From positions 1 through 64,000 of the forward strand of contig JAKOYD010000174.1 of assembly GCA_029780695.1 (NCBI GenBank): a DNA stretch of 64,000 nucleotides, given 5' to 3'. Below are positions 6,354 to 50,523 of this stretch, piece after piece; positions within the stretch are counted from its first letter, which is position 1, and each line of letters opens with the position of its first letter. Source of the DNA: Pseudomonadota bacterium (GTDB taxonomy: Bacteria; Pseudomonadota; Gammaproteobacteria; Burkholderiales; Burkholderiaceae_C). The position numbers were made by a program, and so were the translations under genes. Under the pieces are notes generated by a model. The model was not told the origin of the DNA. It did not search any database and was given only the letters and a program-made list of their open reading frames with translations.

Positions 6354-6411
6354 GCTATGTAAATCGTAGCTGCCCACGCCGCCGATACGGCGCAGAAGCC
6401 GCGTTTTCCTG
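6354..6411 (+). repeat. Two-hairpin palindromic element, copy 1
   Basis: An AT-rich inverted repeat (GCTA...TAGC, 6354-6370) is followed by a GC-rich second half containing GCCGCCGATACGGCGC. This is the same build as the other copies in this window. It lies between the convergent peroxiredoxin and acetyltransferase genes and its 3' end merges into the terminator at 6397. Confidence 0.6.
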
Positions 6412-6428
6412 GAGAAGGCGCGGCTTTT
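6397..6428 (+). terminator. Terminator after the peroxiredoxin gene
   Basis: AGCCGCG at 6397-6403 pairs with CGCGGCT at 6419-6425 across a 15-nt loop, and a run of four T follows. It lies between convergent genes. Confidence 0.55.
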
Positions 6429-6475
6429 GTTCGTTGTGCGCCCGAACGCAAGGCGCGCGCCGCCGTACCGAGCGC

Positions 6476-6994
6476 TCAGGGCTGCAGATCGACCTTGAGG
6501 TAATGCGCGCCCGGCAGCGGGTTGTGATAGTAGGGCGGGATCTCCTCGAACCCCAGGTCTTCGTACAGCGCGCGGGCCGATTCCATGTCGTCCAGCGTGT
6601 CCAGCAGCACGCTGTCGTAGCCCAGCTGCACGGCCGACGCCAGAATCGCCTCGGCCAGTTGGCGCCCCAGTCCGAAGCCGCGAAACGCCTTGCGCACGAA
6701 CAGCCGCTTCATCTCGGCGGCGTTGGCGTAGTCCACGTCGTCGATAGCGCGCAGCGCGCAGCAGCCGGCCAGTTCACCATCCACCCACGCCAGCAGCAGC
6801 GTGCCGCGGGGCGGTGCGTAGTCGCCCGGCAGCGTGGCCAGTTCCTGCTCGAAGCCCTGAAAACACAAGTCAACGCCAAGTTGATTGGCGTATTCGCAAA
6901 ACAGTGCCCGCGCGGCGTCAAGGTGCGCGGCGCTGCGGGCAACGGCGATGTCAATGGGCGGGCGAGTGTCCACGGAAGCGATGCGTGAGCACAC
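6476..6994 (-). CDS. GNAT-family N-acetyltransferase
   Basis: A 172-residue acyl-CoA N-acyltransferase of the GNAT fold. The acetyl-CoA loop motif is visible as RKAFRGFGLGRQLAEAIL (the Q/R-x-x-G-x-G/A pattern), preceded by the beta strand AEMKRLFV and followed by the conserved LYEDLGFEEIPPY near the C-terminus. The substrate is unknown. The first codon appears to be GTG at 6994; a second GTG 21 nt downstream is an alternative. It is on the minus strand, 22 nt downstream of the cytochrome b561 gene, and may share its transcript. Confidence 0.88.
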   Translation of the reverse strand: MCSRIASVDTRPPIDIAVARSAAHLDAARALFCEYANQLGVDLCFQGFEQELATLPGDYAPPRGTLLLAWVDGELAGCCALRAIDDVDYANAAEMKRLFVRKAFRGFGLGRQLAEAILASAVQLGYDSVLLDTLDDMESARALYEDLGFEEIPPYYHNPLPGAHYLKVDLQP

Positions 6995-7016
6995 TGCGCG
7001 CTCACGATGAAACAGT

Positions 7017-7691
7017 CTACCCGAGCATGGGCTGTTGCCCCAGCTGCACCACCCAAGCCACCACGCCCGCCGCCAGGCCCAGCAGCAGCAGCGCCAGCAG
7101 CCGCGTGCCCGCCGTGTCGCGCGACGCCGTGAGCGCGTCAGGCAGCTGCTTGTCGCCCACCAGCATGGGCTTGACCAGGTCGCGGCGCTTGAGCTGGTAG
7201 AAGGCGATGGCCACCACGTGCAGCACCACCAGGCCTATCAGCAGGTACTGCCCCCAGCCCTTGTGCCAGCTGGTCGCCTCGCTGGCCGCGCTGCCCGACA
7301 CCAGGGCCGTCAGCGGCCCGGTGAACGCGATCTCGTCGTCGGCAAACAAGCCGGTGCCCACCTGCGCCGACAGCACCGTCAGCAGCGCGAACACCGACAG
7401 CGCGCCCAACGGCGTGTGGCCCGCGGTGTCTTCGGGCGCGGCCCGCCCGCCCAGGTAGCGCGACAGCCGACCCGGTGTGGGAAAGAAATTGACAAAACGC
7501 GACCAGTGCCCGCCCACCACACCCCACAGCAGCCTGAACACCAGCAGCGCGAACACCGCATAGCCCAAGCGGATGTGCCAGTTCATGGCGTCTCCGCCCA
7601 CCTTGGCGGTAATCACCAGCGCGATGACGCAGGCGGCCAGTGCCCAGTGAAACAGGCGGGTGGGCAAGTCCCAGATGCGGACGGAATTCAT
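7017..7691 (-). CDS. Cytochrome b561-type membrane protein
   Basis: A 224-residue di-heme b-type cytochrome of the bacterial cytochrome b561 / Ni-Fe hydrogenase b-subunit group, an inner-membrane electron carrier. It opens with VRIWDLPTRLFHWALA, whose His starts the first membrane helix. Further helices with possible heme-ligand His residues are at NWHIRLGYAVFALLVFRLLWG, SWHKGWGQYLLIGLVVLHVV and the C-terminal LLALLLLGLAAGVVAW. The ATG at 7691 is preferred to the adjacent TTG. It is divergent from a cytochrome c' gene 159 nt away, which suggests that the two exchange electrons (inference). Confidence 0.9.
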   Translation of the reverse strand: MNSVRIWDLPTRLFHWALAACVIALVITAKVGGDAMNWHIRLGYAVFALLVFRLLWGVVGGHWSRFVNFFPTPGRLSRYLGGRAAPEDTAGHTPLGALSVFALLTVLSAQVGTGLFADDEIAFTGPLTALVSGSAASEATSWHKGWGQYLLIGLVVLHVVAIAFYQLKRRDLVKPMLVGDKQLPDALTASRDTAGTRLLALLLLGLAAGVVAWVVQLGQQPMLG

Positions 7692-7850
7692 CAAGAGGGC
7701 AACGGCTGCAAGCGCCGGAGAAAGGCGCTATGCTGCGCGCCGACCCGGCGAGTTTAGTGAGATTTTGCGCCGCGCGCCGGGTGCGGGTGGCGCGTGCCGC
7801 CCAAATCGTTTTTTCTCAAACCAACTTCACACCTGGGAAAGCCCGCTCCG

Positions 7851-8306
7851 ATGAAGAAGCCATTCACGTTCGCGCTGCTGCTGTCGGCGGCTGCCATTGC
7901 CATGCCCGCGCACGCGCAGTTCGCCAAGGCCGAAGACGCTGTCCAATACCGCCAGGGCGCCTTCCGCGTGCTGGGTTACCACTTCGGTCGGCTGGGCGCC
8001 ATGGCCAACGGCAAGCTGCCCTACAACGCCGCCACCGCGGCAGCCGATGGCGACGTGATCGCCGCCGTCGCCAAACTGCCTGCCGCCGGTTTTGTGCCCG
8101 GCTCCGAGAGCGGCCACGACACCCGCGCGCTGCCCGCGCTGTGGAAGGAAATGCCCAAGGTAAAGGAACTCAACGACAAGATGGTCGCCGAAACCGGCAA
8201 GCTGGCCGTGGCCGCCAAGAGCGGCAACCTGGACCAACTGAAGGCCGCCTTTGGCCCCGCCGCGCAGACCTGCAAGGCGTGCCACGACGATTTCCGCAAG
8301 AAGTGA
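7851..8306 (+). CDS. Cytochrome c' (class II c-type cytochrome)
   Basis: A 151-residue periplasmic class II cytochrome c of the four-helix-bundle cytochrome c' type. Residues 1-22 are a signal peptide ending in AMPAHA. The single heme motif CKACH lies near the C-terminus, as is typical for this class, and is followed by DDFRKK. Cytochromes c' bind NO and may protect against nitrosative stress. The ATG at 7851 is chosen because the signal peptide starts there; an upstream frame adds only 19 non-secretory residues. The gene is divergent from the b561-type cytochrome gene. Confidence 0.93.
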   Translation: MKKPFTFALLLSAAAIAMPAHAQFAKAEDAVQYRQGAFRVLGYHFGRLGAMANGKLPYNAATAAADGDVIAAVAKLPAAGFVPGSESGHDTRALPALWKEMPKVKELNDKMVAETGKLAVAAKSGNLDQLKAAFGPAAQTCKACHDDFRKK

Positions 8307-8405
8307 CCATCCCCCTGCGCGGCTGACGACGCTTCCCCCTTCTTTGCCGCGCTGGGCGCGGGAAGGGCAGCGCACCCAGCGGGCGGGCCAAGCCCTTGCG
8401 CGGGG
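8307..8405 (+). repeat. GC-rich post-stop element, copy 1
   Basis: A GC-rich block begins immediately after the TGA of the cytochrome c' gene, with CCATCCCCCTGCGCGGCTG, then a C-rich run, then GGGAAGGGCAGCG and GGCGGGCCAAGCCC. It shares layout and short words with the blocks at 18925, 30483 and 38937. Similarity is by eye and is the weakest of the four. Confidence 0.4.
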
Positions 8406-8432
8406 GCGTGCGCTTACCTTGTGTTGATTAAT

Positions 8433-8490
8433 GCTCCTTAAAAAGGAGCGCTCTGCGCTTGCTGGTCGGGCGTCAGAGGCCTGAAAGGCC
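8433..8490 (+). repeat. Two-hairpin palindromic element, copy 2
   Basis: GCTCCTTaaAAAGGAGC (8433-8449) is the AT-side hairpin, followed by TGCGCTTGCTGGTCGGGC and the end motif AGGCCTGAAAGGCC. The last 15 nt plus the adjoining terminator are identical to the copy at 13133. Confidence 0.8.
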
Positions 8491-8493
8491 ATG

Positions 8494-8521
8494 AAAAAGC
8501 CGCACCTCGGTGCGGCTTTTT
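8494..8521. terminator. Bidirectional terminator
   Basis: AAAAAGCCGCAC on the left and GTGCGGCTTTTT on the right form a symmetric hairpin with A and T runs on both sides. Bases 8476-8521 are identical to 13176-13221. Confidence 0.85.
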
Positions 8522-8744
8522 GCTGCGCAAGCCAAGTCACGCGTCCGCCGCCAGCTCACGGGTCCAAAGCGATGCTTCTTCCCATGTTTCCATGAGCTAC
8601 GACATGTAAATTAAGTTAGAATGATTATTGGTCTAGAAGGTTTGCTTCTTGGGCATGTGGTGCGTTTCATGCCGGAAAAGCGGGCGCAGCCACCAAGCGT
8701 TGTGGTGTCCATTGCAGGCGTTCAAGAGTGAATTGGGAGGAGAA

Positions 8745-12965: not shown

Positions 12966-13132
12966 GCGCGCAAAGCTCGCACGCTCACGGCAAATTTGGG
13001 GGCTGTCGCATGAGCGAATCCCCCGCTCGGCGCCGTCGCTCAAGCTGGCGCGGCCGGCCTCGCCTGGTCTTCCGTCAGCGGCAGCATCACGCACATCTGC
13101 AGGCGTTCGCGCTTGCCGCGCCACGGCTTGAT

Positions 13133-13190
13133 GCTCCTGAAAGATGAGTGGCTTGTGCTTGGTGGACAAGCGCTGGAGGCCTGAAAGGCC
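13133..13190 (+). repeat. Two-hairpin palindromic element, copy 3
   Basis: GCTCCTGAAAGATGAG (AT-side, partly decayed) is followed by GGTGGACAAGCGCTGGAGG and CCTGAAAGGCC. It stands in the same orientation as the copy at 8433, on the other side of the DUF11 gene. Confidence 0.75.
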
Positions 13191-13193
13191 ATG

Positions 13194-13222
13194 AAAAAGC
13201 CGCACCTCGGTGCGGCTTTTTT
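13194..13222. terminator. Bidirectional terminator after the DUF11 gene
   Basis: The same hairpin as at 8494-8521 (arms AAAAGCCGCAC and GTGCGGCTTTT) with T and A runs on both sides. It can end the DUF11 transcript from the left and the thioredoxin-like gene from the right. Confidence 0.85.
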
Positions 13223-13242
13223 GCTTTATCTCGAAGGCGGCT

Positions 13243-13752
13243 TCAAGCTTCGGCGAGCAGCTTTTCGATCAGCTTGTGCAATTCGTCAAAGTTCGGCGCG
13301 CCGACGTACTTCTTCACGATGCGGCCCTGCTTGTCGACGATGTAGGTGGTGGGCGTCAGCTTCACGTCGCCCCAGGCTTCGGCGACCTTGCCGGTGTTGT
13401 CCAGCGCGACCTTGAATGGCAGCTTGCGCGTTTCGGCAAAGTTGACCACGTAGCTCGGTGGGTCGTAGCTCATGGCGACGGCCAGCGTGTCGTAGCCGCG
13501 GTCCTTGAACTTGTCGTAGGTGGCGACGATCTGCGGCATTTCGGCCACGCAGGTGGTGCAACTGGTGGCCCAGAAGTTGACCAGCGTGACCTTGCCCTTC
13601 AGGTCGGCCGTGGTCTGGCGCGAGCCGTCGAGCAGCACGAAGGTGGAGGCTGGCGCGGCCTCCTGCGCGCAGCCGGCCAGCAGGGCGGCCAGCGCCAACG
13701 CGCCCAGGCTGGCTACAGTGGCGCGGCGGCGGGGTGAGATATGGGGAATCAC
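13243..13752 (-). CDS. TlpA-like thioredoxin-fold lipoprotein
   Basis: A 169-residue membrane-anchored thiol-disulfide protein of the TlpA/ResA/AhpC-TSA group, acting in the periplasm. Residues 1-27 form a lipoprotein signal ending in the lipobox LLAG-C28. The thioredoxin active site is at residues 65-68 in VNFWATSCTTC, where CTTC replaces the more common CxPC. The cis-Pro stretch LTPTTYIVDKQGRIVKKYVG follows. Its partners are not evident; cytochrome c maturation or general thiol reduction is possible. The gene converges on the DUF11 gene with a shared terminator. Confidence 0.9.
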   Translation of the reverse strand: MIPHISPRRRATVASLGALALAALLAGCAQEAAPASTFVLLDGSRQTTADLKGKVTLVNFWATSCTTCVAEMPQIVATYDKFKDRGYDTLAVAMSYDPPSYVVNFAETRKLPFKVALDNTGKVAEAWGDVKLTPTTYIVDKQGRIVKKYVGAPNFDELHKLIEKLLAEA

Positions 13753-13903
13753 GGTGGAATTCTATGCTTCGGTGGGTCGGCGTGCCGGTATGGGGACTTC
13801 ACGATGGACTGGTCGGCAGCCAGAAAGTTCTTGCATCCGCCGCCCCGCGGTACATTGCGTGGCGCGCACCCTTGCGCTTTGCCCAAAGCGCCAAACTCAC
13901 CCC

Positions 13904-15000: not shown

Positions 15001-15060
15001 GAAATTCGTTCAGATCTTTTCCGGCGTGCTCTGGAGAAATTCGCGTGTCCGGGCTTATGC

Positions 15061-15120
15061 GCCAAAAGTGCCGCCTGCGCAAGTCCATCCAGCGTCAACA
15101 GCTACCTTTAATATAGCAAT
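15061..15120 (-). repeat. Two-hairpin palindromic element, copy 4
   Basis: On the minus strand GCTATATTAAAGGTAGC (complement of 15101-15117) is followed by GACGCTGGATGGACTTGCGC and ends in CACTTTTGGC. The element begins directly at the stop codon of the CoA-transferase gene (15120-15122). Confidence 0.75.
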
Positions 15121-16355
15121 CAGATCACGCCGCGATCCCGCAGCGCCGCCAGCCGCGCGGCGTCGGCGCCCAGCAGTTCGCCCAGCACCTCGTCGGTATG
15201 CTGGCCCAGCATGGGGGGCGGCAGGTCGGTGCGCACGGGGGTTTTTTGCAGCTTGATGGGGCTGGACACCAGCGGCAGGTCGGCGCGCAGGGGGTGCTGC
15301 CAGTGCGTGACCATGCCGCGCGCCTGCACGTGCGGGTCGACGAACACTTCGTCCAGGCCGTTGATGGCGCCGCACGGCACCTTGGCGGCTTCCAGGCGGC
15401 TCAGCCAGTCGGCCTTGGGGCGCGTTTTCATCACCGCTTCGAGCAGTGGCACCAGCTCGGCGCGATGCCGCACGCGGTCGGCATTCTTGACGAAGCGCGG
15501 CTCGCTGGCCAAGTCGGGCCGGCCGGCGACTTCGCAGAACTTGGCGTACTGGCCATCATTGCCCACGGCCAGGATGATGAAGTCCTTGCCGCCATCGGGC
15601 CGCGGCGCGACCTCGAACACCTGGTAGGGCACGATGTTCTGATGCGCGTTGCCCATGCGGCCCGGCACCTTTTCGCTGACCAGGTAATTGGCGCCCAGGT
15701 TGGCCAGCATGGCGACCTGCGTGTCCAGCAGGGCCATGTCGAGGTGCTGGCCTTCGCCGGTGCGCTCGGCGTGGCGCAGCGCGGCCAGGATGCCCACCGT
15801 GGCGTACATGCCGGTGAACAGGTCGGCCACCGCCACGCCCACTTTCTGCGGCCCGCCGTCCAGGTCGTCGCGCTCGCCGGTCACGCTCATCAGTCCGCCC
15901 ATGCCCTGGATGATGTAGTCGTAGCCGGCGCGCGGCGCATACGGCCCGGTCTGGCCGAAGCCGGTCAGGCTGCAGTACACCAGCCGCGGGTTGATGGCCT
16001 TGAGGCTGTCGTAATCCAGCCCGTAGCGCGCCATGTCGCCCACCTTGAAGTTCTCGATGAACACGTCGCAGTGCTCGGCCAGTGCGCGGATCAGCGCCTG
16101 GCCTTCGGGCCGCGCGATGTCGCAGGTGACTGAGCGCTTGTTGCGGTTGGTGCCCAGGTAATAGGCCGATTCGTGCGACTCGCGCCCGTCCGCCGATGGC
16201 AGGAAGGGCGGGCCCCAGGTGCGCGTGTCGTCGCCGCTGCCGGGGCGCTCGATCTTGATCACGTCGGCGCCCAAGTCGGCCAGGTTCTGCGTGCACCAGG
16301 GGCCCGCCAGCACGCGGGAAAGGTCAAGGACTCGGATACCGTCAAGTGCGTTCAT
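15120..16355 (-). CDS. Class III CoA-transferase (CaiB/BaiF, formyl-CoA transferase-like)
   Basis: A 411-residue family III CoA-transferase, an enzyme that moves CoA between carboxylic acids through an aspartyl-CoA intermediate. The N-terminal block IRVLDLSRVLAGPWCTQNLADLGADVIKIE and the run GDDTRTWGPPF are typical. The predicted catalytic Asp is D178 in VGVAVADLFTG. A glycine loop (GMGGLMSVTG) precedes it. The ATG at 16355 matches the usual family start; the open frame extends upstream without family similarity. The substrate is unknown. It is divergent from the small lipoprotein gene. Confidence 0.92.
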   Translation of the reverse strand: MNALDGIRVLDLSRVLAGPWCTQNLADLGADVIKIERPGSGDDTRTWGPPFLPSADGRESHESAYYLGTNRNKRSVTCDIARPEGQALIRALAEHCDVFIENFKVGDMARYGLDYDSLKAINPRLVYCSLTGFGQTGPYAPRAGYDYIIQGMGGLMSVTGERDDLDGGPQKVGVAVADLFTGMYATVGILAALRHAERTGEGQHLDMALLDTQVAMLANLGANYLVSEKVPGRMGNAHQNIVPYQVFEVAPRPDGGKDFIILAVGNDGQYAKFCEVAGRPDLASEPRFVKNADRVRHRAELVPLLEAVMKTRPKADWLSRLEAAKVPCGAINGLDEVFVDPHVQARGMVTHWQHPLRADLPLVSSPIKLQKTPVRTDLPPPMLGQHTDEVLGELLGADAARLAALRDRGVI

Positions 16356-16964: not shown

Positions 16965-18214
16965 CCGCCACCGACACGCTGCCGCGCCGCGCCGCCGTGG
17001 CGGTGTTCCTGTCGTTTGCGCTGGCGTACTTCATCTCGGCGCTGCTGCGCGCCGTCACGGCCACGCTGTCGCCGGTGCTGACCAGCGAGTTCAACCTGCA
17101 CGCGCGCGACCTGGGACTGCTGGCGGGTGGCTACTTCCTGGGCTTCGCCGCCATGCAGTTGCCGCTGGGCGCGTGGCTGGACCGGCACGGGCCGAAGAAG
17201 GTGATCCTGGGCATGCTCACCGTGGCCGTGGCGGGTTGCGCGGTGTTTGCCATGGCGGACGGCTTCACGGGCCTGATGGCGGCGCGCGCGCTGATGGGCG
17301 TCGGCGTGGCCGCCTGCCTGATGGCGCCGCTGACCGGCTACCGCCGCTGGTTCGACGCCGGCACGCAGCTGCGCGCCAACGCCTGGATGCTGATGACCGG
17401 CTCGCTGGGCATGCTGGCCTCCACGCTGCCGGTGCAGTGGCTGCTGCCGCTGGTGGGCTGGCGCGTGCTGTTCTGGGGGCTGGCGGCGCTGGTGCTGCTG
17501 GCCATGGGGGTGATTGCGGTGGTGGTGCCGCGCTGGCGCTCGATTGCTACACAAAAAATAGCTGTATCCGCTGATCCGGCCAGCGCAAAGGGCCAAAATG
17601 GTTCGTATGCCGACATCGCGCGCAAAGCCTACTTCCGCCGTGCCACGCCGCTGGGCGCGGTGTGTTTCGGCGGCATGGTCGCCATCCAGTCGCTGTGGGC
17701 CGGGCCGTGGCTCACGCGCGTGGCCGGCGCCACGCCGCTGCAGGCGGCCACCGGGCTGTTCTGGATGAACCTGGGCATGCTGGTGACTTTCTGGGGCTGG
17801 GGCGTGCTGCTGCCGCGCATGGCCGCGCGCGGCGTGTCGGTCGACCGCCTGGTGGCGCGCATCCAGCCTTTCAGCTTTGTCGCGCTGGCGGTGATGGTGG
17901 CGGCCGGCCCGGCGCTGGGCGAATGGACCTTTGTGCTGCTGGCGCTGTACTGCATGCTCAGCACGCCGTCGGCGCAGGTGCAACCGGTGGTGGCCATGTC
18001 GTTCGCGCCGCACCTGGCCGGGCGCGCGCTGTCGGCGTACAACCTGGTGATCTTCCTGGGCATCTTCGTCGTGCAGTGGGGCATCGGCCTGGGGGCGGAC
18101 GCGTTCGAGTCGCTCGGCGGGTCGGCCGCCGACAGCCTGCGCGCGGCGATGGCGGTGTTCGGCCTGGTCAGCGTGGCGTGCTGGGTGCGCTTTGTGCGGG
18201 CCGGGCGCGGATAA
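16961..18214 (+). CDS. Major facilitator superfamily transporter
   Basis: A 417-residue inner-membrane transporter with about 12 helices. The MFS signature between helices 2 and 3 is visible as GAWLDRHGPKK, and the helix 4 region is ARALMGVGVAACLMAPL. The start is the GTG at 16961 overlapping the previous stop; a GTG two codons earlier is also possible. The substrate is unknown. The central cytoplasmic loop carries an in-frame palindromic element (residues 196-213, ATQKIAVSADPASAKGQN), whose base composition is much more AT-rich than the surrounding gene. Confidence 0.9.
   Translation: MTATDTLPRRAAVAVFLSFALAYFISALLRAVTATLSPVLTSEFNLHARDLGLLAGGYFLGFAAMQLPLGAWLDRHGPKKVILGMLTVAVAGCAVFAMADGFTGLMAARALMGVGVAACLMAPLTGYRRWFDAGTQLRANAWMLMTGSLGMLASTLPVQWLLPLVGWRVLFWGLAALVLLAMGVIAVVVPRWRSIATQKIAVSADPASAKGQNGSYADIARKAYFRRATPLGAVCFGGMVAIQSLWAGPWLTRVAGATPLQAATGLFWMNLGMLVTFWGWGVLLPRMAARGVSVDRLVARIQPFSFVALAVMVAAGPALGEWTFVLLALYCMLSTPSAQVQPVVAMSFAPHLAGRALSAYNLVIFLGIFVVQWGIGLGADAFESLGGSAADSLRAAMAVFGLVSVACWVRFVRAGRG
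17546..17599 (+). repeat. Two-hairpin palindromic element, copy 5, inside the MFS gene
   Basis: GCTACACAAAAAATAGC (17546-17562) plus CCGCTGATCCGGCCAGCGC and GGGCCAAAAT form the element. It lies in frame in the loop between transmembrane helices 6 and 7. The base composition contrasts sharply with the flanks. Confidence 0.85.
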
Positions 18215-20947: not shown

Positions 20948-20959
20948 GCTGGCTTTTAT

Positions 20960-21022
20960 TGGTCAAAAACTGCCCTGGCGCTTGCCAGAATTGCATCTTT
21001 AGCTATAAATTTGATAGTTATT
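20960..21022 (-). repeat. Two-hairpin palindromic element, copy 6
   Basis: On the minus strand AACTATCAAATTTATAGCT (complement of 21001-21019) precedes TTCTGGCAAGCGCCAGGGCAG and TTTTTGACC. It lies between the convergent ptsI and DMT exporter genes. The exporter stop codon TAA (21018-21020) falls inside its AT-rich arm. Confidence 0.8.
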
Positions 21023-21908
21023 GGCGCATTCGCGTGCCCGCCACCGCCGCGCCCAGAATCAGCGCGGTCGCCAGCCCGATGTTCCAGCTGAGCGGCCGTC
21101 CGGTCGTCCACAACAGGATCAGCGTGGACAGCAGCGGCGTCAGGTAGCTCAGCACGCCGATCTGGCGCGCGTCGCCCATCTTCAGCGCCGCGTCCCACAG
21201 AAAGAACGCGCCGCCCAGCGGCCCCAGGCCCAGCGCAGCGATCAGCAGGCCGTCGCGCGCCGACAGGCTGACGCTCGGCTCCAGCAGGGCATGGCACCCC
21301 AGCGACAGCCCGCCCGACACCAGTCCGAAGGTGCCGATGGCTGCGGTGGGAAAGGGCTGCCCCGTCAGCGTCAGCCGCTTGGTCAGCAGCGAATAGCTTG
21401 ACCAGATGAAGGCCGCGCCGGCCGCAGCCGCAAAGCCCAGCGCGGCCATCGGGTGGCCGCCCGCCGCCGGACTGGCCGCGCCGCGCCCCAGGATCGCGAT
21501 GGCCGCGCCCGCCATCCCTACCAGCGCCGCCAGCACGTGCGCCGCGCTCAGGCGCACGCCCGGCAGCAGCAGCGGCGCCATCAGCACGATGCCGAGCGGC
21601 CACAGGTAGTTGACCAGGTTGGCTTCGACCGGCGGCGCCAATTGCAGCGCGGTGAACAGCAGAAAGTGGTAGCCGAACAGCCCGTACACGCCCAGCGCCA
21701 GCGCGCGCGGCGCCACCGCCAGCCGCCGCACGTCAAAGCGCACCAGTGGCAGCGCGATCACGCTGCCCGCCAGCAGCCCCAGCCCGGTCAGCAGAAACGG
21801 CGGCACATGCGCCAGCGCCGTGCCCAGCGCCGCCAGGCTGGCCCACAAGGCGATGGTGGCAAGCGCCAGCAGGTTGGCGGTGGCGGTGTGTGAACGGGCG
21901 GCGGGCAT
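21018..21908 (-). CDS. EamA/DMT-family exporter
   Basis: A 296-residue inner-membrane transporter with two EamA halves of five helices each. The N-terminal half begins TANLLALATIALWASLAAL, and the second half includes AGAAFIWSSYSLLTKRLT and FLWDAALKMGDARQIGVLSYLTPLLSTLILL, a form seen in the YddG-like aromatic amino acid exporter group. The ATG at 21908 is chosen because the first helix follows at once; a frame 22 codons longer has no support. The stop codon lies inside a palindromic element. The substrate is not known. Confidence 0.87.
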   Translation of the reverse strand: MPAARSHTATANLLALATIALWASLAALGTALAHVPPFLLTGLGLLAGSVIALPLVRFDVRRLAVAPRALALGVYGLFGYHFLLFTALQLAPPVEANLVNYLWPLGIVLMAPLLLPGVRLSAAHVLAALVGMAGAAIAILGRGAASPAAGGHPMAALGFAAAAGAAFIWSSYSLLTKRLTLTGQPFPTAAIGTFGLVSGGLSLGCHALLEPSVSLSARDGLLIAALGLGPLGGAFFLWDAALKMGDARQIGVLSYLTPLLSTLILLWTTGRPLSWNIGLATALILGAAVAGTRMRQ

Positions 21909-22070
21909 GGGCCGCGCATCATAGTCGGGGTGGTGGGCGGCGTGCAGCCCCGATTGGCCGATAGCGGTGCGCATGCCGAGCCGCGCCGCGCGGCTTCGTC
22001 GGCTTAATGCGGGCGATCAAAGGCCTAGCCGATATGTAAAGGTGCGCCGTGGCGCAGGCTGCTGACAGCC

Positions 22071-29461: not shown

Positions 29462-30163
29462 TCAAACCTGCAGCAGCCGCTGCAACTGCGCCGCCAACCC
29501 GTGCGCTGCCTCGTCCCACGAGGCCGAAACACCGATTGTAGAAAGATCGACGGTTTTCAAGCCCGCATAACCACAAGGGTTGATGCGGGCAAAGGGCTCC
29601 AGGTCCATCGCCACGTTCAGCGCCAGGCCGTGGTAGGCGCGGTGGTTGCTGACCTTGATGCCCAGTGCGGCGATCTTGCCAAGACCAGTGAAATCAGGCG
29701 TTGGCGCAGCGCTGCCGGGCGTTCGAAGCTGCGGTTTTTGTAGCAAAACGGCGTGGCTGAACGGGTCGTCCAATCGCACGTAAATGCCCGGCGCGCCGCC
29801 CACGCGGTGGCCGGTCACGCCAAAGTGCGCCAGCGTGCGGATCACCGCCTCTTCCAGTCGCCACACGTATTCCTTGACGAAAATGCCGCGGGGCTTGAGG
29901 TCGATCAGCGGATACGCCACCACCTGCCCTGGCCCGTGGTAAGTCACCTGCCCACCGCGGTCGGTTTGCACCAGGGGGATGTCGCCCGGCGCCAGCACAT
30001 GCTCGGGCCGGCCGGCCAGCCCGAGCGTGAAGACCGGTGCATGCTCACAAATCCATAGCTGCTCGCCCTCTTGAGGCAAGCGCTGGGCGGCAAAATCCTT
30101 CATGGCCTGGAAGGTGGGCAGGTAGTCGACGCGACCGATCAGGCGCACGGGCAGGGCGGGCAT
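29462..30163 (-). CDS. lipB: Octanoyl-[ACP]:protein N-octanoyltransferase
   Basis: LipB, 233 residues, moves octanoyl groups from acyl carrier protein to lipoyl domains and feeds LipA. The N-terminal [15 protein letters not shown], the block [24 protein letters not shown], the catalytic Lys K163 in GKIAALGIK and the catalytic Cys C197 in RINPCGYAG are all present. Between GIYVR and K163 there is an insertion of about 25 residues (134-160); residues 139-158 come from a palindromic element and include [19 protein letters not shown]. The ATG at 30163 is the family start. Confidence 0.95.
29691..29748 (-). repeat. Two-hairpin palindromic element, copy 7, inside lipB
   Basis: On the minus strand TGCTACAAAAACCGCAGCT (complement of 29727-29745) is followed by ACGCCCGGCAGCGCTGCGCC and CCTGATTT. 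It is in frame in lipB, between the beta strand ahead of the active-site Lys and that Lys. Confidence 0.7.
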
Positions 30164-30966: not shown

Positions 30967-31890
30967 TCAGGCCGCCGTCTTGGCGCGCTGGTAGGCGGCG
31001 TACAGCCGGGCGTACACCGGGCCGGGCCGGCCGTCGCCCACGGGCTGGCCGTCCAGCGTGGTGATGGGCAGCACTTCCTTGGTGGCGGAGGACAGCATCA
31101 GTTCGTCGGCGGCCATGACCTCGGCGCGCGGGATGCGGCGCAGCTCGAAGCCGATGCCTTCTTGCGCGCACAGCGCCTGAATGGCGCCGTAGCGGATGCC
31201 CTCCAGCACCAGGTTGTCCTTGGGCGGGCCCTGCACCACGCCGTTTTTCACCACCCACACGTTGCTGGCGGCGGCTTCGCTCAGAAAGCCATCGCGAAAC
31301 ATCACGGTTTCCAGCGCGCCCTGCTCAAAGCTGATTTGGCGCGAAAACACCGCGCCCAGCAGGCTGATGGACTTGATGTGCGCCTTCTTCCAGCGAAAGT
31401 CGTCGGCGCTGACGCAGGCCACACCCTTTTGGCGCTGCTCGTCCGTGGGTGGCTTCATGGGCAGGCAAGTGGCGAACACGGTGGGCGTCAGTCCCGGCAG
31501 CATGGGGTGGTCGCGCAGCGCCACGCCGCGCGTGACCTGGAAGTAATAGAACCAGTCGGTGGCTGCGGCTTCAGTGCCTTGCTTGCCGCCAGCGCTTGCC
31601 ATTTGATGATACGTTGCTATTAATTGCATAGCAATCTGGCGCCACTCGTCGCGCGTGTGCGGGTTGGGGATGCGTGTCTCGGCCAAGCTGCGCTCCAGTC
31701 GCGCCATGTGCTGCTCGAAGCGAAACGGCCGCGGCGCCTGGCCGGGCTGGCCGTAAAGGGCGATGCCCTCGTACACGCCGTCGCCGAAGATGAACCCGCG
31801 GTCCAGCGGGCTGATGCGCGCTTCGGGCAGCGTGGTGTATTCGCCGCTCACGTAGCACGGCAGGGGCGGCAGGTGCGATGTGTCGATCAT
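30967..31890 (-). CDS. dat: D-amino acid aminotransferase (class IV)
   Basis: A 307-residue PLP-dependent class IV aminotransferase. FIFGDGVYEGIALYGQ at residues 34-49, the PLP Lys K173 in HIKSISLLGA, and LSEAAASNVWVVKNGVV mark the fold. The wording fits D-alanine aminotransferase better than the branched-chain enzyme, though the call rests on general likeness. Residues 86-107 (AMQLIATYHQMASAGGKQ and flanks) are encoded by a palindromic element in a loop before WFYYFQVTRG. The ATG at 31890 is preferred to a TTG 33 nt upstream. Order dat-ybeD-lipB-lipA on the minus strand. Confidence 0.88.
   Translation of the reverse strand: MIDTSHLPPLPCYVSGEYTTLPEARISPLDRGFIFGDGVYEGIALYGQPGQAPRPFRFEQHMARLERSLAETRIPNPHTRDEWRQIAMQLIATYHQMASAGGKQGTEAAATDWFYYFQVTRGVALRDHPMLPGLTPTVFATCLPMKPPTDEQRQKGVACVSADDFRWKKAHIKSISLLGAVFSRQISFEQGALETVMFRDGFLSEAAASNVWVVKNGVVQGPPKDNLVLEGIRYGAIQALCAQEGIGFELRRIPRAEVMAADELMLSSATKEVLPITTLDGQPVGDGRPGPVYARLYAAYQRAKTAA
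31572..31636 (-). repeat. Two-hairpin palindromic element, copy 8, inside dat
   Basis: A perfect 7-bp inverted repeat, TTGCTAT (31614-31620) and ATAGCAA (31628-31634), is followed on the minus strand by CATCAAATGGCAAGCGCTGG and GGCAAGCAAGGCACTG. It is in frame in the dat gene. Confidence 0.85.
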
Positions 31891-40879: not shown

Positions 40880-41812
40880 CTACCAGCTCCCGCTCGCGCC
40901 GCCGCCGCCAAAATCGCCGCCACCGCCTGAACTCCAGCCGCCGCCACCGCCAAAACCCCCGCCGCCAAGGCCGCCGCCGCCACCCCAGCCGCCGGGCGGC
41001 AGAAACACCGGGCCGTTGCCACGCGACCTGGACACCGGCAGCGACGAAAGCACCCCCGCGAACAGCGCAAACAGCAGCGCCACCAGGCCCGCGCCCAGCG
41101 CCAGCGCCAAGCTGGCCGTGACCAGGTAGGCCAGTCCGCCCACGCCGGCGCCCGTCAGCAGCGCACCCAGCTTGCGGCCAAAAATGCCGCGCGTCACCGC
41201 GCTGATGACCGGCACGGCGATGAACAAAAAGATCAACCCCTGAAACAGGTCGAAGCCGCCCGCGCTTGTGGGCCCGCCGCGCGCACCCGGCGCGGCCACC
41301 GGCGGCAGCGGCTCGCCCTTGATGCGCGCCGCCAGCTGGTCCACCGCAGCGTTCAGGCCGCCGGCGTAGTCGCCATTGCGGAAGCGCGGCGCCATGGCCT
41401 CGTCAATGACCTGCTTGGCCGCGATATCGGGCACCGCGCCTTCCAGCGTCTTGGCCACCTCGATGCGCATGCGACGGTCCTGCACCGCCACCAGCACGAT
41501 CAGGCCGTCGCCCACGTCCTTGCGGCCGATCTTCCAGGCGTTGCCCACCCGGTTGGCAAAGGCGGCAATGTCCTCGGGCGCGGTGGTGGGCACCATCAGC
41601 ACCACCACCTGCGATCCTTTTTCCTGCTCCAGCGTGGCCAGCTTGGCGTCCAGCGCCGCCACCTGCGCGGGCTGCAGCGTACCGGACGTGTCGATGACAT
41701 GACCCGTCAGCGGCGGCACCGGCTGCAGCAGTGACTGCGCATGCGCCGTCAGCGCTGCGAAAACTATCAAAAAGATAGCTGTCAGTGCCTTGAATAAAGC
41801 GGCTGGACGCAC
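40880..41812 (-). CDS. Secreted TPM-domain protein with Gly-rich tail
   Basis: A 310-residue membrane protein of the YgcG/TPM family. The signal peptide is residues 1-25 (MRPAALFKALTAIFLIV, then FAALTAHA). The TPM domain follows at about residues 33-155 (TGHVIDTSGTLQPAQVAALDAKLATLEQEKGSQVVVLMVPTT). Two membrane helices lie near 200-255. The C-terminal 40 residues are Gly/Trp/Ser-rich (repeats of GGGG with W and F). The start is GTG at 41812; a TAG stands three codons upstream in frame, so no earlier start exists. The start codon and most of the signal peptide are copied from a palindromic element lying antisense. Confidence 0.88.
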   Translation of the reverse strand: MRPAALFKALTAIFLIVFAALTAHAQSLLQPVPPLTGHVIDTSGTLQPAQVAALDAKLATLEQEKGSQVVVLMVPTTAPEDIAAFANRVGNAWKIGRKDVGDGLIVLVAVQDRRMRIEVAKTLEGAVPDIAAKQVIDEAMAPRFRNGDYAGGLNAAVDQLAARIKGEPLPPVAAPGARGGPTSAGGFDLFQGLIFLFIAVPVISAVTRGIFGRKLGALLTGAGVGGLAYLVTASLALALGAGLVALLFALFAGVLSSLPVSRSRGNGPVFLPPGGWGGGGGLGGGGFGGGGGWSSGGGGDFGGGGASGSW

Positions 41813-41820
41813 TTTGGCCT
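41763..41820 (+). repeat. Two-hairpin palindromic element, copy 9, under the TPM signal peptide
   Basis: CTATCAAAAAGATAG (41764-41778) is followed by CTGTCAGTGCCTTGAATAAAG, CGGCTGGACGC and ACTTTGGCCT. The TPM gene reads it backwards. The GTG start (complement of 41810-41812) and residues 1-17 fall inside it. Confidence 0.8.
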
Positions 41821-41853
41821 ATGAAAATGGGCTGGGCGAAACGGTGCCGCGCC

Positions 41854-42639: not shown

Positions 42640-43086
42640 ATGCCCAAGTCACGTTACGCCGCCGCCCAGCTGGGCGGATCCGCCGACGACGTGGAAGTCG
42701 CCTTCTACGAAGCGTTGCGCAATGCCGACCTGGACCAGCTCATGGCCTGCTGGGCCGACGAGGACGACATTGTCTGCGTGCACCCCGGCGGCCCGCGCCT
42801 GGTGGGCGCCGCCGCCATCCGCCAGGCGTTCGAGCAGATGTTTGCACACGGCAGCATCCAGGCTACGCCCGAACGGCTGCGCCGCGTCGAATCGCTGGGC
42901 GCCGCCGTGCACAACGTGCTGGAGCGCGTCGACCAGATCACCGCCGAAGGCCCGCGCCGCGCCTGGGTGGTGGCGACCAACGTTTACCTCAAGACCGCGC
43001 AGGGCTGGCGCCTGGTGGCGCACCACGCCAGCCCGGGCCGCAGCGAGGTGGCCGAAGTCACGCAGCGCGCGCAGCAGCTGCATTAA
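42640..43086 (+). CDS. SnoaL-like/NTF2-fold protein
   Basis: A 148-residue protein of the SnoaL/DUF4440 cone-fold group: DDVEVAFYEALRNADLDQLMACWADEDDIVCVHPGGPRLVG, then AAAIRQAFEQMF, and near the end TNVYLKTAQGWRLVAHHASPG. Conserved Trp, His and Asp positions fit the fold, but members range from isomerases to binding proteins, so no substrate is offered. It is divergent from lemA and 45 nt upstream of the YheT-type hydrolase gene. Confidence 0.85.
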   Translation: MPKSRYAAAQLGGSADDVEVAFYEALRNADLDQLMACWADEDDIVCVHPGGPRLVGAAAIRQAFEQMFAHGSIQATPERLRRVESLGAAVHNVLERVDQITAEGPRRAWVVATNVYLKTAQGWRLVAHHASPGRSEVAEVTQRAQQLH

Positions 43087-43089
43087 GGG

Positions 43090-43140
43090 TCAATTCGGCA
43101 TCTGGCGCGCGTCTGATCAGCGCAGACAGCTATGAATTTT
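43090..43140 (-). repeat. Two-hairpin palindromic element, copy 10
   Basis: On the minus strand AAAATTCATAGCTGTCTGCGC is followed by TGATCAGACGCGCGCCAGA and TGCCGAATTGA. It fills the gap between the SnoaL-like and YheT-type genes, and the ATG of the latter (43132-43134) lies in its AT-rich arm. Confidence 0.7.
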
Positions 43141-44175
43141 GAACTGCCGGCCTACCGCGCTCCGGTCTGGCTGCCCGGCGGCCACGGGCAGACGATCTGG
43201 CCCGCGCTGTACGCGCGCCGCTTCGTCGGGCCGCGCCCGCGCTGGCGGCGCGAACGCTGGGACACGCCCGATGGCGACTTCATCGACGTCGACTGGCTGC
43301 ACGCCGACGCCCCGCCAGCCGCGGGGGGCGCGGGCGCCATCCGCGCGGCGCCCCCGCTGCTGGTGCTGTTCCACGGACTCGAAGGCTCGTCGCGCAGCCA
43401 CTACGCCGAGGCCTTTGCCGGCTGGGCGCGCGCGCACGGGCTGGCGCTGGCCGTGCCCCACTTTCGCGGCTGCTCGGGCGAAATCAACCGCGCGCCGCGC
43501 GCCTACCACTCGGGCGACCACGCCGAAATCGGCTGGCTGCTGCGCCGCTTCCGGGCCGCGCAGGCGGCGCGCGGCGGCGGCCCGCTGCTGGCCGTCGGCA
43601 TATCGCTGGGCGGCAACGCCTTGTTGCGCTGGGCCGGCGAATGGGGCCAAGCGGCCCGCCCGGTGGTCGACGCCATCGCCGCCGTGTGCGCGCCGCTCGA
43701 CTTGGCAGCCGGCGGCCACGCCATCGGGCGCGGCTTCAATCGGCAGGTCTACAACCGCGTGTTCTTGCGCACCATGAAGGCCAAGGCCCGCGCCAAACTG
43801 GCCCAGCACCCCGGCCTGTTCGACGCCGCCGCGCTGCGTGCCGCGCGCGACCTGTACGCCTTTGACGACCTGTTTACCGCGCCGCTGCACGGCTTCGCCG
43901 GGGTGCTCGACTACTGGCGCCGCGCCTCCGCCAAGCCGCTGCTGCCCGCCATCCGCGTACCCGCGCTGGCGCTGAACGCGCGCAATGACCCCTTCGTGCC
44001 CGCCGCGTCGCTGCCGTGCCGCGACGAGGTCGGCCGCTGGGTGACGCTGTGGCAACCCGACGAAGGCGGCCACGTGGGTTTTGCGCAGGGCGCCCTGCCG
44101 GGGCATGTGATGTGGCTGCCGCAGGCCGTTGGCGGGTGGCTGCTGGCGCCGCACAGCGAACTCCCCACGCACTGA
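43132..44175 (+). CDS. YheT-type alpha/beta hydrolase
   Basis: A 347-residue alpha/beta hydrolase of the YheT/embryo-specific hydrolase type. The family opens with VWLPGGHGQTIWPALYAR; the oxyanion region is LLVLFHGLEGSSRSHYA; HFRGCSGEINRAPRAYHSGD follows; the nucleophile is the Ser of VGISLGGN; and the C-terminal His lies in DEGGHVGF. The substrate is not known (E. coli YheT is poorly characterised). It may be cotranscribed with the SnoaL-like gene. The start codon is part of a palindromic element. Confidence 0.92.
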   Translation: MNFELPAYRAPVWLPGGHGQTIWPALYARRFVGPRPRWRRERWDTPDGDFIDVDWLHADAPPAAGGAGAIRAAPPLLVLFHGLEGSSRSHYAEAFAGWARAHGLALAVPHFRGCSGEINRAPRAYHSGDHAEIGWLLRRFRAAQAARGGGPLLAVGISLGGNALLRWAGEWGQAARPVVDAIAAVCAPLDLAAGGHAIGRGFNRQVYNRVFLRTMKAKARAKLAQHPGLFDAAALRAARDLYAFDDLFTAPLHGFAGVLDYWRRASAKPLLPAIRVPALALNARNDPFVPAASLPCRDEVGRWVTLWQPDEGGHVGFAQGALPGHVMWLPQAVGGWLLAPHSELPTH

Positions 44176-44448
44176 TCCGCCCTCGGTCACAGTGGCGCTG
44201 CGCACATCGCCGCTCGGCGACGCTGGCGCGCGGGCGTTGAAAACGAACGTTCTTCTGCTATCGCCCGCTCAGCGTGTTTTGGCGTACTTTTCATGTATTT
44301 CACACGCAACACGCGGGTTCGCCGAACGCAAAAATTTCTCGAAACCGCGGTCGGCGTGACCCCGGTTGGCGCATATTCTGAATCCTTTTTCACTACTCCG
44401 TCTACGATGCGAGACCGACCGACAAGTACGGTCGCGGGAGATGAAGAA

Positions 44449-48132: not shown

Positions 48133-48156
48133 AGGCCGCAGCACCGGTCGAATGCC

Positions 48157-48188
48157 GCGCCGCCAGGCAATCTGGCGGCGCGTCTTTT
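48157..48188. terminator. Terminator between the DUF11 gene and speE
   Basis: A 10-bp perfect stem, GCGCCGCCAG with CTGGCGGCGC, has a 5-nt loop and is followed by GTCTTTTT. It separates convergent genes. Confidence 0.85.
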
Positions 48189-48215
48189 TGGCGCTGACGT
48201 GCCGGTCAACCGGTC

Positions 48216-49217
48216 TCAGCCCACCACTTCCACGCGCGGCGCGGCGTTGAGGCCGGGGTCGAGCGACGGGTCGTCCAGCGCTTCGCCGTCGCGAATCGGC
48301 CTGGCGGGTGCGGCCAGCAGGGCGCGCAGGTAATTGGGCTGCGCCAGCATGGCGTGGTGGGTGGCGCCGTTGTACAGCTGCAGATCGGGCAGGCGCAAGT
48401 CGGCGATGCGGCGGTCAATATCGGCGGCGCTCAACGCCAGCGGGTCGACACTGTCCGACGCCATGGCCATGCCCCACAGGGTGCCGTACAGGGGCACGTA
48501 CTGAAAGTAGGGGCGCACGACGGGGAAGGCGCTTTGCACCGACGCCACGATGCGCGCCAGCGTGGCGCCGCGGTGAATGGGCGACTGGATGTGCAGCGAC
48601 AGCACGCCGCCCGGCGCCAGCAGGCGGCGGCAGGCGGCGTAGAACTCGGCGGTGTACAGGGCCACCGCCGGCCCGAAAGGGTCGGTCAGGTCGAGCACGA
48701 TCTGGTCAAACCGTTGGGCCGACTGCTGCATCACGTAGGCGTGGCCGTCGCCGACGTGCACCTGCAGGCGGCGGTCGAAGAACGCGCCGCGGTGGATGGT
48801 GGCCAGCCAGGTGCGCGCCATGTCGATGACGTCGCTGTCCAGCTCGACCAGCACCACGCGCGCCATGTCGGGGTGCTTGAGCAGTTCCTCGACCGTGCCG
48901 CCATCGCCGCCGCCGATCACCAGCGCCGAGCGCGGGCGCCCGTGGCTGACCGCGGGCAGGTGCACCATGGGCTCGTGGTAGAAGAATTCGTCGCGTTCCG
49001 ACGTCATGAAGCACTCGTCGATGCGCATCACGCGGCCGAACAGCGGCGTCTGCAGGATCTCGATGTGCTGCAGGGGTGTGAGGCGCTCGGCCAGGCGGGC
49101 GGACGCGCCCAGGTAAAAGCCGAAGTCGGGCGTCAGCGCCTCGGCGACCAGCTGCCGGCTGGCCGGCGCCGCGGCCTGTGCGGGGGCTGGTCCGGCGCCG
49201 TGCAAGCGCGCGCTCAT
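48216..49217 (-). CDS. speE: Spermidine synthase-type polyamine aminopropyltransferase
   Basis: A 333-residue aminopropyltransferase that adds the aminopropyl group of decarboxylated AdoMet to putrescine. The AdoMet-binding loop is VIGGGDGGTVEELLKH (residues 100-115). The substrate loop is MTSERDEFFYHEPMVHLPAVSHG (71-93). The catalytic Asp is in DLTDPFGPA (about 172-180). Residues 1-25 are a low-complexity Ala/Pro stretch. The ATG at 49217 overlaps the speD stop by 4 nt, so speD and speE are coupled. The C-terminal 40 residues extend beyond the usual length. Confidence 0.92.
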   Translation of the reverse strand: MSARLHGAGPAPAQAAAPASRQLVAEALTPDFGFYLGASARLAERLTPLQHIEILQTPLFGRVMRIDECFMTSERDEFFYHEPMVHLPAVSHGRPRSALVIGGGDGGTVEELLKHPDMARVVLVELDSDVIDMARTWLATIHRGAFFDRRLQVHVGDGHAYVMQQSAQRFDQIVLDLTDPFGPAVALYTAEFYAACRRLLAPGGVLSLHIQSPIHRGATLARIVASVQSAFPVVRPYFQYVPLYGTLWGMAMASDSVDPLALSAADIDRRIADLRLPDLQLYNGATHHAMLAQPNYLRALLAAPARPIRDGEALDDPSLDPGLNAAPRVEVVG

Positions 49218-49651
49218 GCCCGCTCGACGCGGTGCAGGTGCGGGTCGGCCGGCGCGAAGGCGGCGCTCACGCGCGCGAACAGGTCTTCGGCCTGCGCTCG
49301 GTTGTCGGTGGAGTAACTGCACACATACACGTCGAGCGTGACGTAGCCGTCTTCCGGCCAGGTGTGGATCGACAGGTGCGATTCGGCCAGCACGACCACG
49401 CCGGTCACGCCCGCGCCTTCGCCAAAGCTGTGGAACAGCGCGCCCACGTCGGTCAGGCCGGCAGCCAGCACGGCCTGGCGGCAGAAGGCCTCAAGGTAGG
49501 CGGCGTCGGTCATCAGCCGCGCGTCGCACACGCAGCCATGCAGGTCGCCGATCAGGTGCAGGCCCGGCGCCTTGCGCGGCACCGGCGGCAGGCGCACCGC
49601 AGCGCGCTGGACGTCGTCGTGAGAGGTGGTGGGGCGCAGCAGCATGGGCAT
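49214..49651 (-). CDS. speD: S-adenosylmethionine decarboxylase proenzyme
   Basis: A 145-residue prokaryotic AdoMet decarboxylase (SpeD/SpeH type 1) that makes the aminopropyl donor for SpeE. The self-cleavage site is E90-S91 in LAESHLSIHTWPE; S91 becomes the pyruvoyl cofactor. The catalytic Cys lies in DVYVCSYS, and the N-terminal LHLIGDLHGC fits the family. The ATG at 49651 is used; longer frames extend to 49741. The stop overlaps the speE start (ATGA). Confidence 0.93.
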   Translation of the reverse strand: MPMLLRPTTSHDDVQRAAVRLPPVPRKAPGLHLIGDLHGCVCDARLMTDAAYLEAFCRQAVLAAGLTDVGALFHSFGEGAGVTGVVVLAESHLSIHTWPEDGYVTLDVYVCSYSTDNRAQAEDLFARVSAAFAPADPHLHRVERA

Positions 49652-49897
49652 GGCCAGTCTCCGAGGTGAATGAAACAAAAGAGACATCCGGTCGGCACCG
49701 GGGCGAAGCAATGCGACGAAAACGGCACGACACGGTGTCACTGCGCGCCTTCACTGCGGAGGCGCCCGTCCGGCTTAAAAGCTACCGCGCCTATCCTGTC
49801 GCAAAAAACCTTCAACTGTAATCAATATGCGGTCAACTGTCAAAAACTCAAGGCATTGTCATTTGCGCCGCGCGCCTCGTGCGACTTATGATGGGTC

Positions 49898-50440
49898 ATG
49901 GACGACATTGTCAGGCAGGCCATGGCCAAATGGCCCAACGTGCCCCATTGCCACGGTTGGCTGGGGCTGGACGCGCGAGGCAACTGGTACCTGCGCGACG
50001 GCGACGCGCAAGCGCTGGGCGGCTTTGCCAGTGGCGTGCCGGGCGCCAAGGGGGCGCTGCTGCAACACCAGAAGCTGATCGAATTCATTCAGCGCAATTA
50101 CGACCACGACGCCGCCGGCCAGTGGTTCTTCCAGAACGGTCCGCAGCGCGTGTTCGTCGAATTGCAGGCCGCACCCTGGGTCTGGCGCGTGGCGGGCGAC
50201 GGTTCGGTCACGTCGCATACGGGCGTGCCGGCGCAAGTGCGCGAGGTGCTGGCGGACGAATCGGGCCGCGTGTTCATGGCCACCGATATCGGGCTGGGCC
50301 TGGTCCACACGCAGGACATGGGCGCCGTGGCCGATGCGCTGGAGCGCGGCGCCTGGCCGATCAGCGAGGTGCGCGCCGACGCTTTGCCGTCGCGTTTTGG
50401 CTTCGTGCTGAGTCCGCAAGCGCGGCAGGCGGCCGGTTGA
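49898..50440 (+). CDS. Conserved hypothetical protein, unknown function
   Basis: A 180-residue protein of a type I associate with Burkholderiales genomes but whose function I do not know. MDDIVRQAMAKWPNVPHCHGWLGLDARGNWYLRD at the start, QHQKLIEFIQRNYDHDAAGQWFFQNGPQRVFVELQAAPWVWRV in the middle, and SEVRADALPSRFGFVLSPQARQ at the end look like a compact soluble domain with many Trp and Gly. There is no signal peptide. It is divergent from speD and convergent with the diheme cytochrome gene; a palindromic element follows. Confidence 0.75.
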   Translation: MDDIVRQAMAKWPNVPHCHGWLGLDARGNWYLRDGDAQALGGFASGVPGAKGALLQHQKLIEFIQRNYDHDAAGQWFFQNGPQRVFVELQAAPWVWRVAGDGSVTSHTGVPAQVREVLADESGRVFMATDIGLGLVHTQDMGAVADALERGAWPISEVRADALPSRFGFVLSPQARQAAG

Positions 50441-50465
50441 GCCGGCGCCACGCCAACCGCATGTT

Positions 50466-50523
50466 GCTCTAATAATAAGAGCGTCCCACGCTGAATCCAC
50501 CAGCGCTGAAAAGGGATTCTGGC
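50466..50523 (+). repeat. Two-hairpin palindromic element, copy 11
   Basis: GCTCTaataataAGAGC (50466-50482, with 5-bp arms) is followed by CCCACGCTGAATCCACCAGC, GCTGAAAAGGG and ATTCTGGC. It lies between convergent genes and next to the terminator at 50527. Confidence 0.75.

Follow-up and report, generated by a model that had tools for sequence, protein, structure and literature searches.

A 64,000-nt stretch of contig JAKOYD010000174.1 (assembly GCA_029780695.1; Burkholderiaceae_C), referred to as the window, carries multiple copies of a dispersed, two-part motif of 67 bp. The motif behaves as double-stranded DNA without pairing constraint. Its sites are shared between species and genera, while one of its halves takes different forms in different lineages at the same sites. 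Copies are spaced more evenly than random and show no strand bias, and examples within genes arose in place. We tentatively regard the motif as an unusually long DNA-uptake-type sequence of natural transformation, a reading that we hold at slightly less than even probability. G000 denotes the window's own species, G015 (a complete genome) and G293 two members of the same genus.

An initial description made from the window alone, the original prediction, had reported a dispersed two-part repeat of about 60 bp. The repeat is real and more abundant than claimed, and its unit is longer. Extension of the flanks outward from modelled copies delimited 67 positions with sharp edges, at which no terminal inverted repeats were visible. 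No gap occurred across the 67 bp in 80 aligned copies, and 144 of 150 covariance-model matches in the window's own genome were exactly 63 nt long (150 of 5,023 candidates were scored and all matched; an 82-copy set was restricted to matches of this length). The first part consists of the dyad GCTAT-N7-ATAGC followed by TG and is nearly invariant between lineages. The second part is lineage-specific; behind it come GGC and a short run of T/A. In a set of 326 copies, limited to scores of at least 35 bits, the information content was about 60 bits.

Abundance was far above chance. A weight matrix trained on 77 copies gave 118 matches of at least 20 bits in 464 kb and none in the reversed sequence, and a matrix built from 57 copies outside called genes (a filter applied to this set only) gave 125 and none. 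Within called genes, the 57-copy matrix found 43 matches; synonymous shuffling reduced these to 2 and codon shuffling to 0. In G015, 163 matches were present in 560 kb, and a 29-base pattern matched 953 times, its backward control 4 times. Enrichment over the controls was confirmed by both the matrix and the pattern counts. By our estimate the window's own genome holds about 1,000 copies and G015 about 1,260, which corresponds to the hundreds to thousands of dispersed copies typical of uptake sequences. Near-identical copy pairs were absent from the sampled stretches, except for three copies in one local repeat. These three (L088 9860, 12507 and 15617) are 93-100% identical, lie about 3 kb apart and are perhaps carried by a repeated gene.

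The palindromic appearance of the motif had led to the claim that its copies vary in sequence and keep the pairing. This claim did not survive. In 80 aligned copies, 79.4% of the cells of the proposed stems were paired compared with 79.9% after shuffling, the covariation score was 0.085 versus 0.089, and RNAalifold returned no consensus structure. All 12 stem pairs remained between z -1.5 and 1.8 in 326 copies, though positions 32, 33, 39 and 40 vary (the first row of the covariation table is a division artefact from an invariant column). Compensatory changes, proposed as a check of the element, were found in neither set. The 11 window copies alone had been weakly suggestive, with a pairing score reached by 13 of 500 shuffles. 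As this signal was lost with more data and neither covariation nor a fold appeared, a hairpin of RNA or single-stranded DNA was rejected, and a misleading reading is thereby removed. By eye, the second half is not even palindromic in G293 and in a further genome, G035. Neither the palindrome kept by pairing of the Rickettsia palindromic element (RPE) nor the hairpin with covarying stem of repetitive extragenic palindromes (REP) was present. In contrast to the stems, adjacent columns reached z 70 in the 326 copies, and strand-symmetric alternatives occupied fixed places (AA/TT at 12-14 and 56-58, TG/CA at 46-47). To us, this suggests that double-stranded DNA is recognised through half-sites and base steps.

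These results make a structured RNA or a transcription terminator very improbable. Two dyads are present, many copies lie near gene ends while divergent gaps contain few (7 of 62 in G000, 9 of 113 in G015), and terminator-like hairpins follow two of the window copies, all of which would suit such a role. Against it stand the missing fold and covariation and the occurrence of both orientations, within genes as well as beside co-oriented genes (46 in the same and 60 in the opposite direction). A search of the window with Rfam at the gathering threshold revealed no known family except one tRNA (58571-58643).

The two halves of the motif behave differently between lineages. According to per-species matrices, the consensus of the second half is GCGCTTG-N5-CAAGCGC in G000 and G015, GCGCAGATGG-N-TGTAGGGC in G293 and GAGCAGTATTTACATGGGC in G035; a few other genomes share with G035 the use of another dialect. 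Variant matches outnumbered canonical ones by 327 to 13 in G035 and by 304 to 169 in G293, counts that are only roughly comparable, the patterns allowing 3 and 2 mismatches, respectively, and overlapping. Among 26 G293 sites occupied in G015, both letters diagnostic of the second dialect were found at 13 in G293 and at none in G015, and four sites were canonical in both. The figures for the strictly defined sites described below were 7 of 16 and 0 of 16. The window copy at 50462 belongs to the sites with a different dialect in G293. Different dialects at shared sites are not explained by new insertions, and concerted change in place accounts for them. Lineage dialects of this kind are known from uptake sequences. 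Within the single genome of G015, GGAC replaces GCGC at positions 42-45 in 20 of 244 copies as a discrete minority state.

Occupancy of orthologous sites was high. With sites required to lie inside one BLAST alignment, 26 of 28 and 26 of 32 sites in the two directions between G000 and G015 were occupied in both, and 16 of 21 G293 sites were occupied in G015. This strict count uses exact lengths and disfavours sites with long indels; at two of seven sites that interpolated lengths had made appear length-neutral, it revealed differences of 13 and 25 nt. A looser definition yielded 37 of 41 and 40 of 52 for G000 and G015 and 26 of 32 for G293 sites in G015; it accepts intervals up to 3 and 1.5 kb, may count neighbouring copies and relies on interpolated interval lengths in the G000-G015 set. 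Mean identity of 36 orthologous copy pairs was 63% compared with 52% for random pairs, while flanking matches were 71-91% identical. Thirteen sites were occupied in only one of the three species. Six of them were gapless over the element, and none of the 13 differed by about 67 nt, a difference that the one-alignment selection works against seeing.

Copies within two genes illustrate change in place. In hemC, G015 alone carries the motif (34.6 bits); the 22 further orthologs compared (23 of 26 in total) scored -42 to -88 bits, and the G015 protein is colinear without length change. Synonymous differences between G015 and G000 affected 10 of 15 codons inside the motif and 56 of 248 outside (p = 5.6e-4, a post hoc value because the gene was picked for having the motif), compared with 2 of 14 and 70 of 229 between G000 and G293, where no excess was seen. 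Of 26 LipB orthologs, four (those of the three genus members and G039) carry an antisense site over the N-terminus at 20 bits or more. None of the 26 showed a length change there, and the region aligns without gaps to LipB of M. tuberculosis. To judge from these alignments, the motif is superimposed on native coding sequence in both genes. An in-frame insertion relative to orthologs, as expected of an RPE, was found neither at the LipB N-terminus nor in HemC, whereas origin by substitution in place, including coding sequence, is what HemC, LipB and the six gapless sites display; the other seven polymorphic sites and one intergenic site are less clear. A second LipB site, at 29682, scored 22.0 bits in G000 and 21.3 bits in G293 and was not found in G015 (-2.1 bits). 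The gene after hemC, presumably hemD-like, has a site filled in 19 of the 20 motif-rich genomes probed (by eye, the flanking codons agree in 18) and in none of the 6 motif-poor ones, of which one keeps a decayed copy of 11.8 bits. In the aminotransferase described below, a loop is longer in motif carriers.

The same comparisons bear on the proposal of the original prediction that the repeat is an RPE-like, non-autonomous mobile element. In a modified form, a remnant of an RPE- or REP-type element would have spread in an ancestor and since been homogenised, for example by gene conversion. We consider this improbable. Fixed length and sharp edges, a snug fit in many gaps, bimodal scores and a 57-nt length difference at one empty site speak for it, as does the position of the motif at the 3' end of a Y1 transposase gene resembling the REP-associated tyrosine transposases (RAYT). 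The motif overlaps or abuts this end at a similar offset in 9 of 16 loci (L001 2149-2215; L318, L320, L322, L323, L328, L329, L330 and L332). On the other side, the LipB and HemC copies lie on native coding sequence without insertion, no stem covariation exists, near-identical copies are lacking beyond the local repeat, shared sites carry different dialects, and no polymorphic site within one alignment differs by the length of the unit. Comparison of occupied with empty sites, suggested as a check of mobility, gave a divided answer: six of 13 sites were gapless, yet one intergenic difference of 57 nt was found. Mobilisation by RAYT was rejected as the main cause. Y1_Tnp matches were present in 24 of 26 motif-rich but also in 88 of 124 other genomes, the motif-rich G244 and G288 are outside the 112 of 150 genomes with a match, and conservation across genomes is no narrower for the site after hemC than for the RAYT site.

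Placement relative to genes rests on gene calls made for this analysis. Copies wholly inside called genes amounted to 67 of 183 in G000 and 55 of 244 in G015 (23-37%), and a further 52 and 73, respectively, overlapped a gene end, in line with the original observation that many copies overlap genes. The in-gene copies were 66 sense and 56 antisense. Occurrence on both strands, noted before, was found to be without bias (85 plus, 78 minus in the G015 stretches). Spacing was more even than random, with a coefficient of variation of 0.82 versus 0.99 +/- 0.07 and 0.4% of simulations as low, in a test that pooled orthologous stretches of two species.

Even spacing, dialects, the lack of an orientation bias and the strand-symmetric dinucleotide states at fixed places, with adjacent-column z up to 70, would also suit the site of a chromosomal protein that functions in nucleoid structure, topology (topoisomerase), segregation or repair. 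Such a protein would bind double-stranded DNA at two or three dyads, with selection for even coverage and co-evolution of protein and sites. We judge this explanation, the main rival, to be less likely than an uptake code. A/T helical periodicity was not significant (p = 0.17), and the restriction of richness to 26 of 150 genomes within a single family would mean that a major chromosomal factor is dispensable. If the motif nevertheless marks such a protein, it would be a major, so far undescribed one.

The association with Comamonadaceae made in the original prediction holds for part of the family: 26 of 150 genomes had at least 25 canonical matches (27-953; controls 0-11). Among the matches listed, named carriers belong to Acidovorax, Paenacidovorax, Ottowia, Giesbergeria and Comamonas, and metagenome-assembled carriers are labelled Rhodoferax, Rubrivivax and once Pseudoxanthomonas. 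A record of Acidovorax temperans contains an exact motif match (71.6 bits). An order-wide survey with covariance model R2 (strict filters, E <= 1e-6) matched 4 of 150 Burkholderiales genomes, three of them from this family. In a viral collection of 2.9 million contigs, 74 stretches matched the core pattern and are candidates for copies in phages.

The resemblance to the uptake sequences of Haemophilus and Neisseria, together with published selective transformation, leads us to favour an uptake code over a chromosomal protein site, with a confidence somewhat short of even. We infer a receptor, uptake, and recombination as the driving force. A DNA receptor of the pilus or envelope would prefer motif-bearing fragments, and recombination of these fragments would push chromosomal sites toward the motif through base substitutions, both between genes and where proteins tolerate change. 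A shift in preference would let existing sites drift to a new dialect, and a loss of preference would let them decay. With still more reserve, we propose that the motif could constitute a self-recognition code, a long bipartite word with one stable half and one species dialect, through which recombination-biased drive might reshape about 1,000 loci and their proteins. In Neisseriaceae, the specific receptor is a ComP-type pilin.

Published data on transformation are compatible with an uptake code. According to passages of PMC4212676, Verminephrobacter eiseniae is transformed in a sequence-selective manner that depends on pili, and in Acidovorax temperans transformants arose from own-species DNA alone; no uptake sequence is named in the abstract or in 12 of the paper's 17 passages. 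Uptake sequences reportedly evolve through point mutations and occur in open reading frames without orientation bias (passages of PMC1939737), and they form dialects (passages of PMC3630211).

Several findings weigh against an uptake code. Known uptake sequences measure 9-12 bp, compared with 67 bp and about 60 bits here, and the motif is therefore not classed as a plain member of the DNA uptake sequences (DUS) or uptake signal sequences (USS). Score histograms are bimodal, with most sites at 40-80 bits and few at 10-35 bits. In seven of the 13 polymorphic sites, gaps either compensate or leave a net difference of -25 to +15 nt, and one intergenic site measures 117 versus 60 nt between congeners, compatible with a clean insertion or loss. 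HemC jumps from -65 to +35 bits without an intermediate among the 23 orthologs compared, and amino-acid differences between G015 and G000 are raised as well (7 of 22 inside the motif, 35 of 283 outside). ComEC is present in 144 of 150 genomes, motif-rich or not. GC content and copy number show no overall correlation (rho 0.16, p 0.33); four of five G015 stretches below 63% GC hold 0-1 copies, which by itself speaks for an uptake code, and the fifth holds 9. Passages of PMC1939737 doubt very even spacing of uptake sequences. Finally, sequence divergence, and not the motif, could underlie the species limit of A. temperans.

If the favoured uptake code is correct, Burkholderiales would thereby gain their first described uptake-type sequence, to judge from a literature search that did not extend to most subscription journals and found no earlier report of an uptake sequence in Comamonadaceae or Burkholderiales. 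An uptake code would explain the sequence-selective transformation reported in Comamonadaceae, provide a readable barrier to gene flow with dialects within one genus, and imply a recombination bias able to impose a 67-bp word on coding sequence.

In the window itself, 12 strong copies were identified. They comprise ten of the eleven places listed in the original prediction and two places missing from it, and the eleventh place, 6354, is marginal. Covariance model R1, trained on the eleven places, recovered all of them and 56434-56496. A matrix derived from G015 (first seeds from a matrix including the window's genome, final version trained on G015 copies only) found ten at 19-56 bits, missed 6354 and added 30039-30105 and 56434-56500, both on the plus strand; no match of at least 5 bits was obtained in the reversed window. 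The copy placed at 29691 is real and spans 29682-29748 on the minus strand. At 14.0 bits with the own-species matrix, 6354 is comparable to three further doubtful places at 12-15 bits. The element was not among the 25 pairs listed by a general inverted-repeat search of the window. The copies are as follows (scores with the own-species and the G015 matrix):

6350-6416, plus: marginal copy with a 1-nt indel; 14.0 bits (matrix partly trained on the window) and below 15 bits.
8429-8495, plus: intergenic; 44.6 and 37.8 bits.
13129-13195, plus: intergenic, occupied in G015 by an aligned copy; 44.0 and 37.1 bits.
15055-15121, minus: at the 3' end of gene 15120-16313 (minus), occupied in G015; 60.5 and 55.8 bits.
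17542-17608, plus: inside an MFS transporter gene (Pfam MFS_1), sense, occupied in G015 at 61 bits; 60.3 and 54.2 bits.
20956-21022, minus: at the 3' end of gene 21018-21974, occupied in G015, in G293 with the other second half; 61.4 and 49.4 bits.
29682-29748, minus: inside lipB, sense; 32.0 and 19.3 bits.
30039-30105, plus: antisense over the 5' region of lipB, not listed before; 43.7 and 40.6 bits.
31570-31636, minus: inside a class IV (D-amino acid type) aminotransferase gene (Pfam Aminotran_4), sense; 41.4 and 24.5 bits.
41759-41825, plus: overlapping a TPM-domain gene (Pfam TPM_phosphatase) at its called 5' end; 40.5 and 30.3 bits.
43083-43149, minus: between genes, with overlap of both called ends; 49.0 and 53.8 bits.
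50462-50528, plus: between convergent genes, occupied in G015, in G293 with the other second half; 46.8 and 42.7 bits.
56434-56500, plus: antisense over the 3' part of a resistance-nodulation-division (RND) periplasmic adaptor gene (Pfam HlyD_D23), not listed before; 48.3 and 42.0 bits.

The last copy lies in an RND efflux operon (51573-57678) encoding an outer-membrane OEP protein, an AcrB-type pump and the adaptor, whose C-terminal tail it covers in antisense. The copies at 8429 and 13129 each precede an almost identical terminator-like hairpin (copy and hairpin together 8429-8530 and 13129-13230) and bracket a 4.7-kb segment coding for a DUF11/SdrD_B-like protein of 1,379 amino acids. As the matches flanking this segment lie only 55 nt apart in G015, its gain or loss took place between direct motif-terminator repeats. 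By eye, the G015 ortholog of another copy, G000:C44:39012, contains an insertion-sequence-like segment within the 3' part of the motif; insertion sequences may target it.

Parts of the motif appear to have been seen before. Table 7 of PMC5217627 lists the spaced pairs GCTTAT(N)5AAGCG in Acidovorax ebreus (114 copies) and ATAGCT(N)22CAAAAG in Polaromonas naphthalenivorans (125 copies), mostly intergenic with some in genes. On inspection, motif positions 29-34 and 40-44 match the spacing of the first pair exactly, and the second pair starts at positions 17-22. We take both as published sightings of parts of the 67-bp motif; the section of that paper containing the table presents no whole element, dialects, comparative evolution or function. 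Passages of PMC2755013 deal with CRISPR repeats only, and none of four Comamonadaceae genus names searched for occurs in PMC12306157.

Among dispersed repeats, the BRE of Bordetella and other beta-proteobacteria are likewise counted in Comamonadaceae and occur in part within open reading frames; as described in passages of PMC3110155, the sole basis of this comparison, they differ in being about 90 bp long, tandem and 69% GC.

RPEs are fixed-length units that are numerous within open reading frames and gaps. The motif resembles them in all these features and differs in its lack of pairing constraint, the absence of insertion at the two in-gene copies compared with orthologs, and dialect change in place. 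With REPs, their mosaic arrangements (BIME) and RAYT it shares the palindromic look, a frequent location at gene ends and one copy beside a RAYT-like gene, but it shows no covariation, is not bound to RAYT presence and has many in-gene copies.

The motif is also close to the DUS of Neisseriaceae and the USS of Pasteurellaceae. In the literature passages considered, these also number hundreds to thousands of copies in gaps and open reading frames, have no orientation bias, evolve by substitution and form dialects. Their even spacing is both reported and doubted there, while the 67-bp motif is evenly spaced. Unlike these words of 9-12 bp, the motif reaches 67 bp and about 60 bits and contains dyad-symmetric parts.

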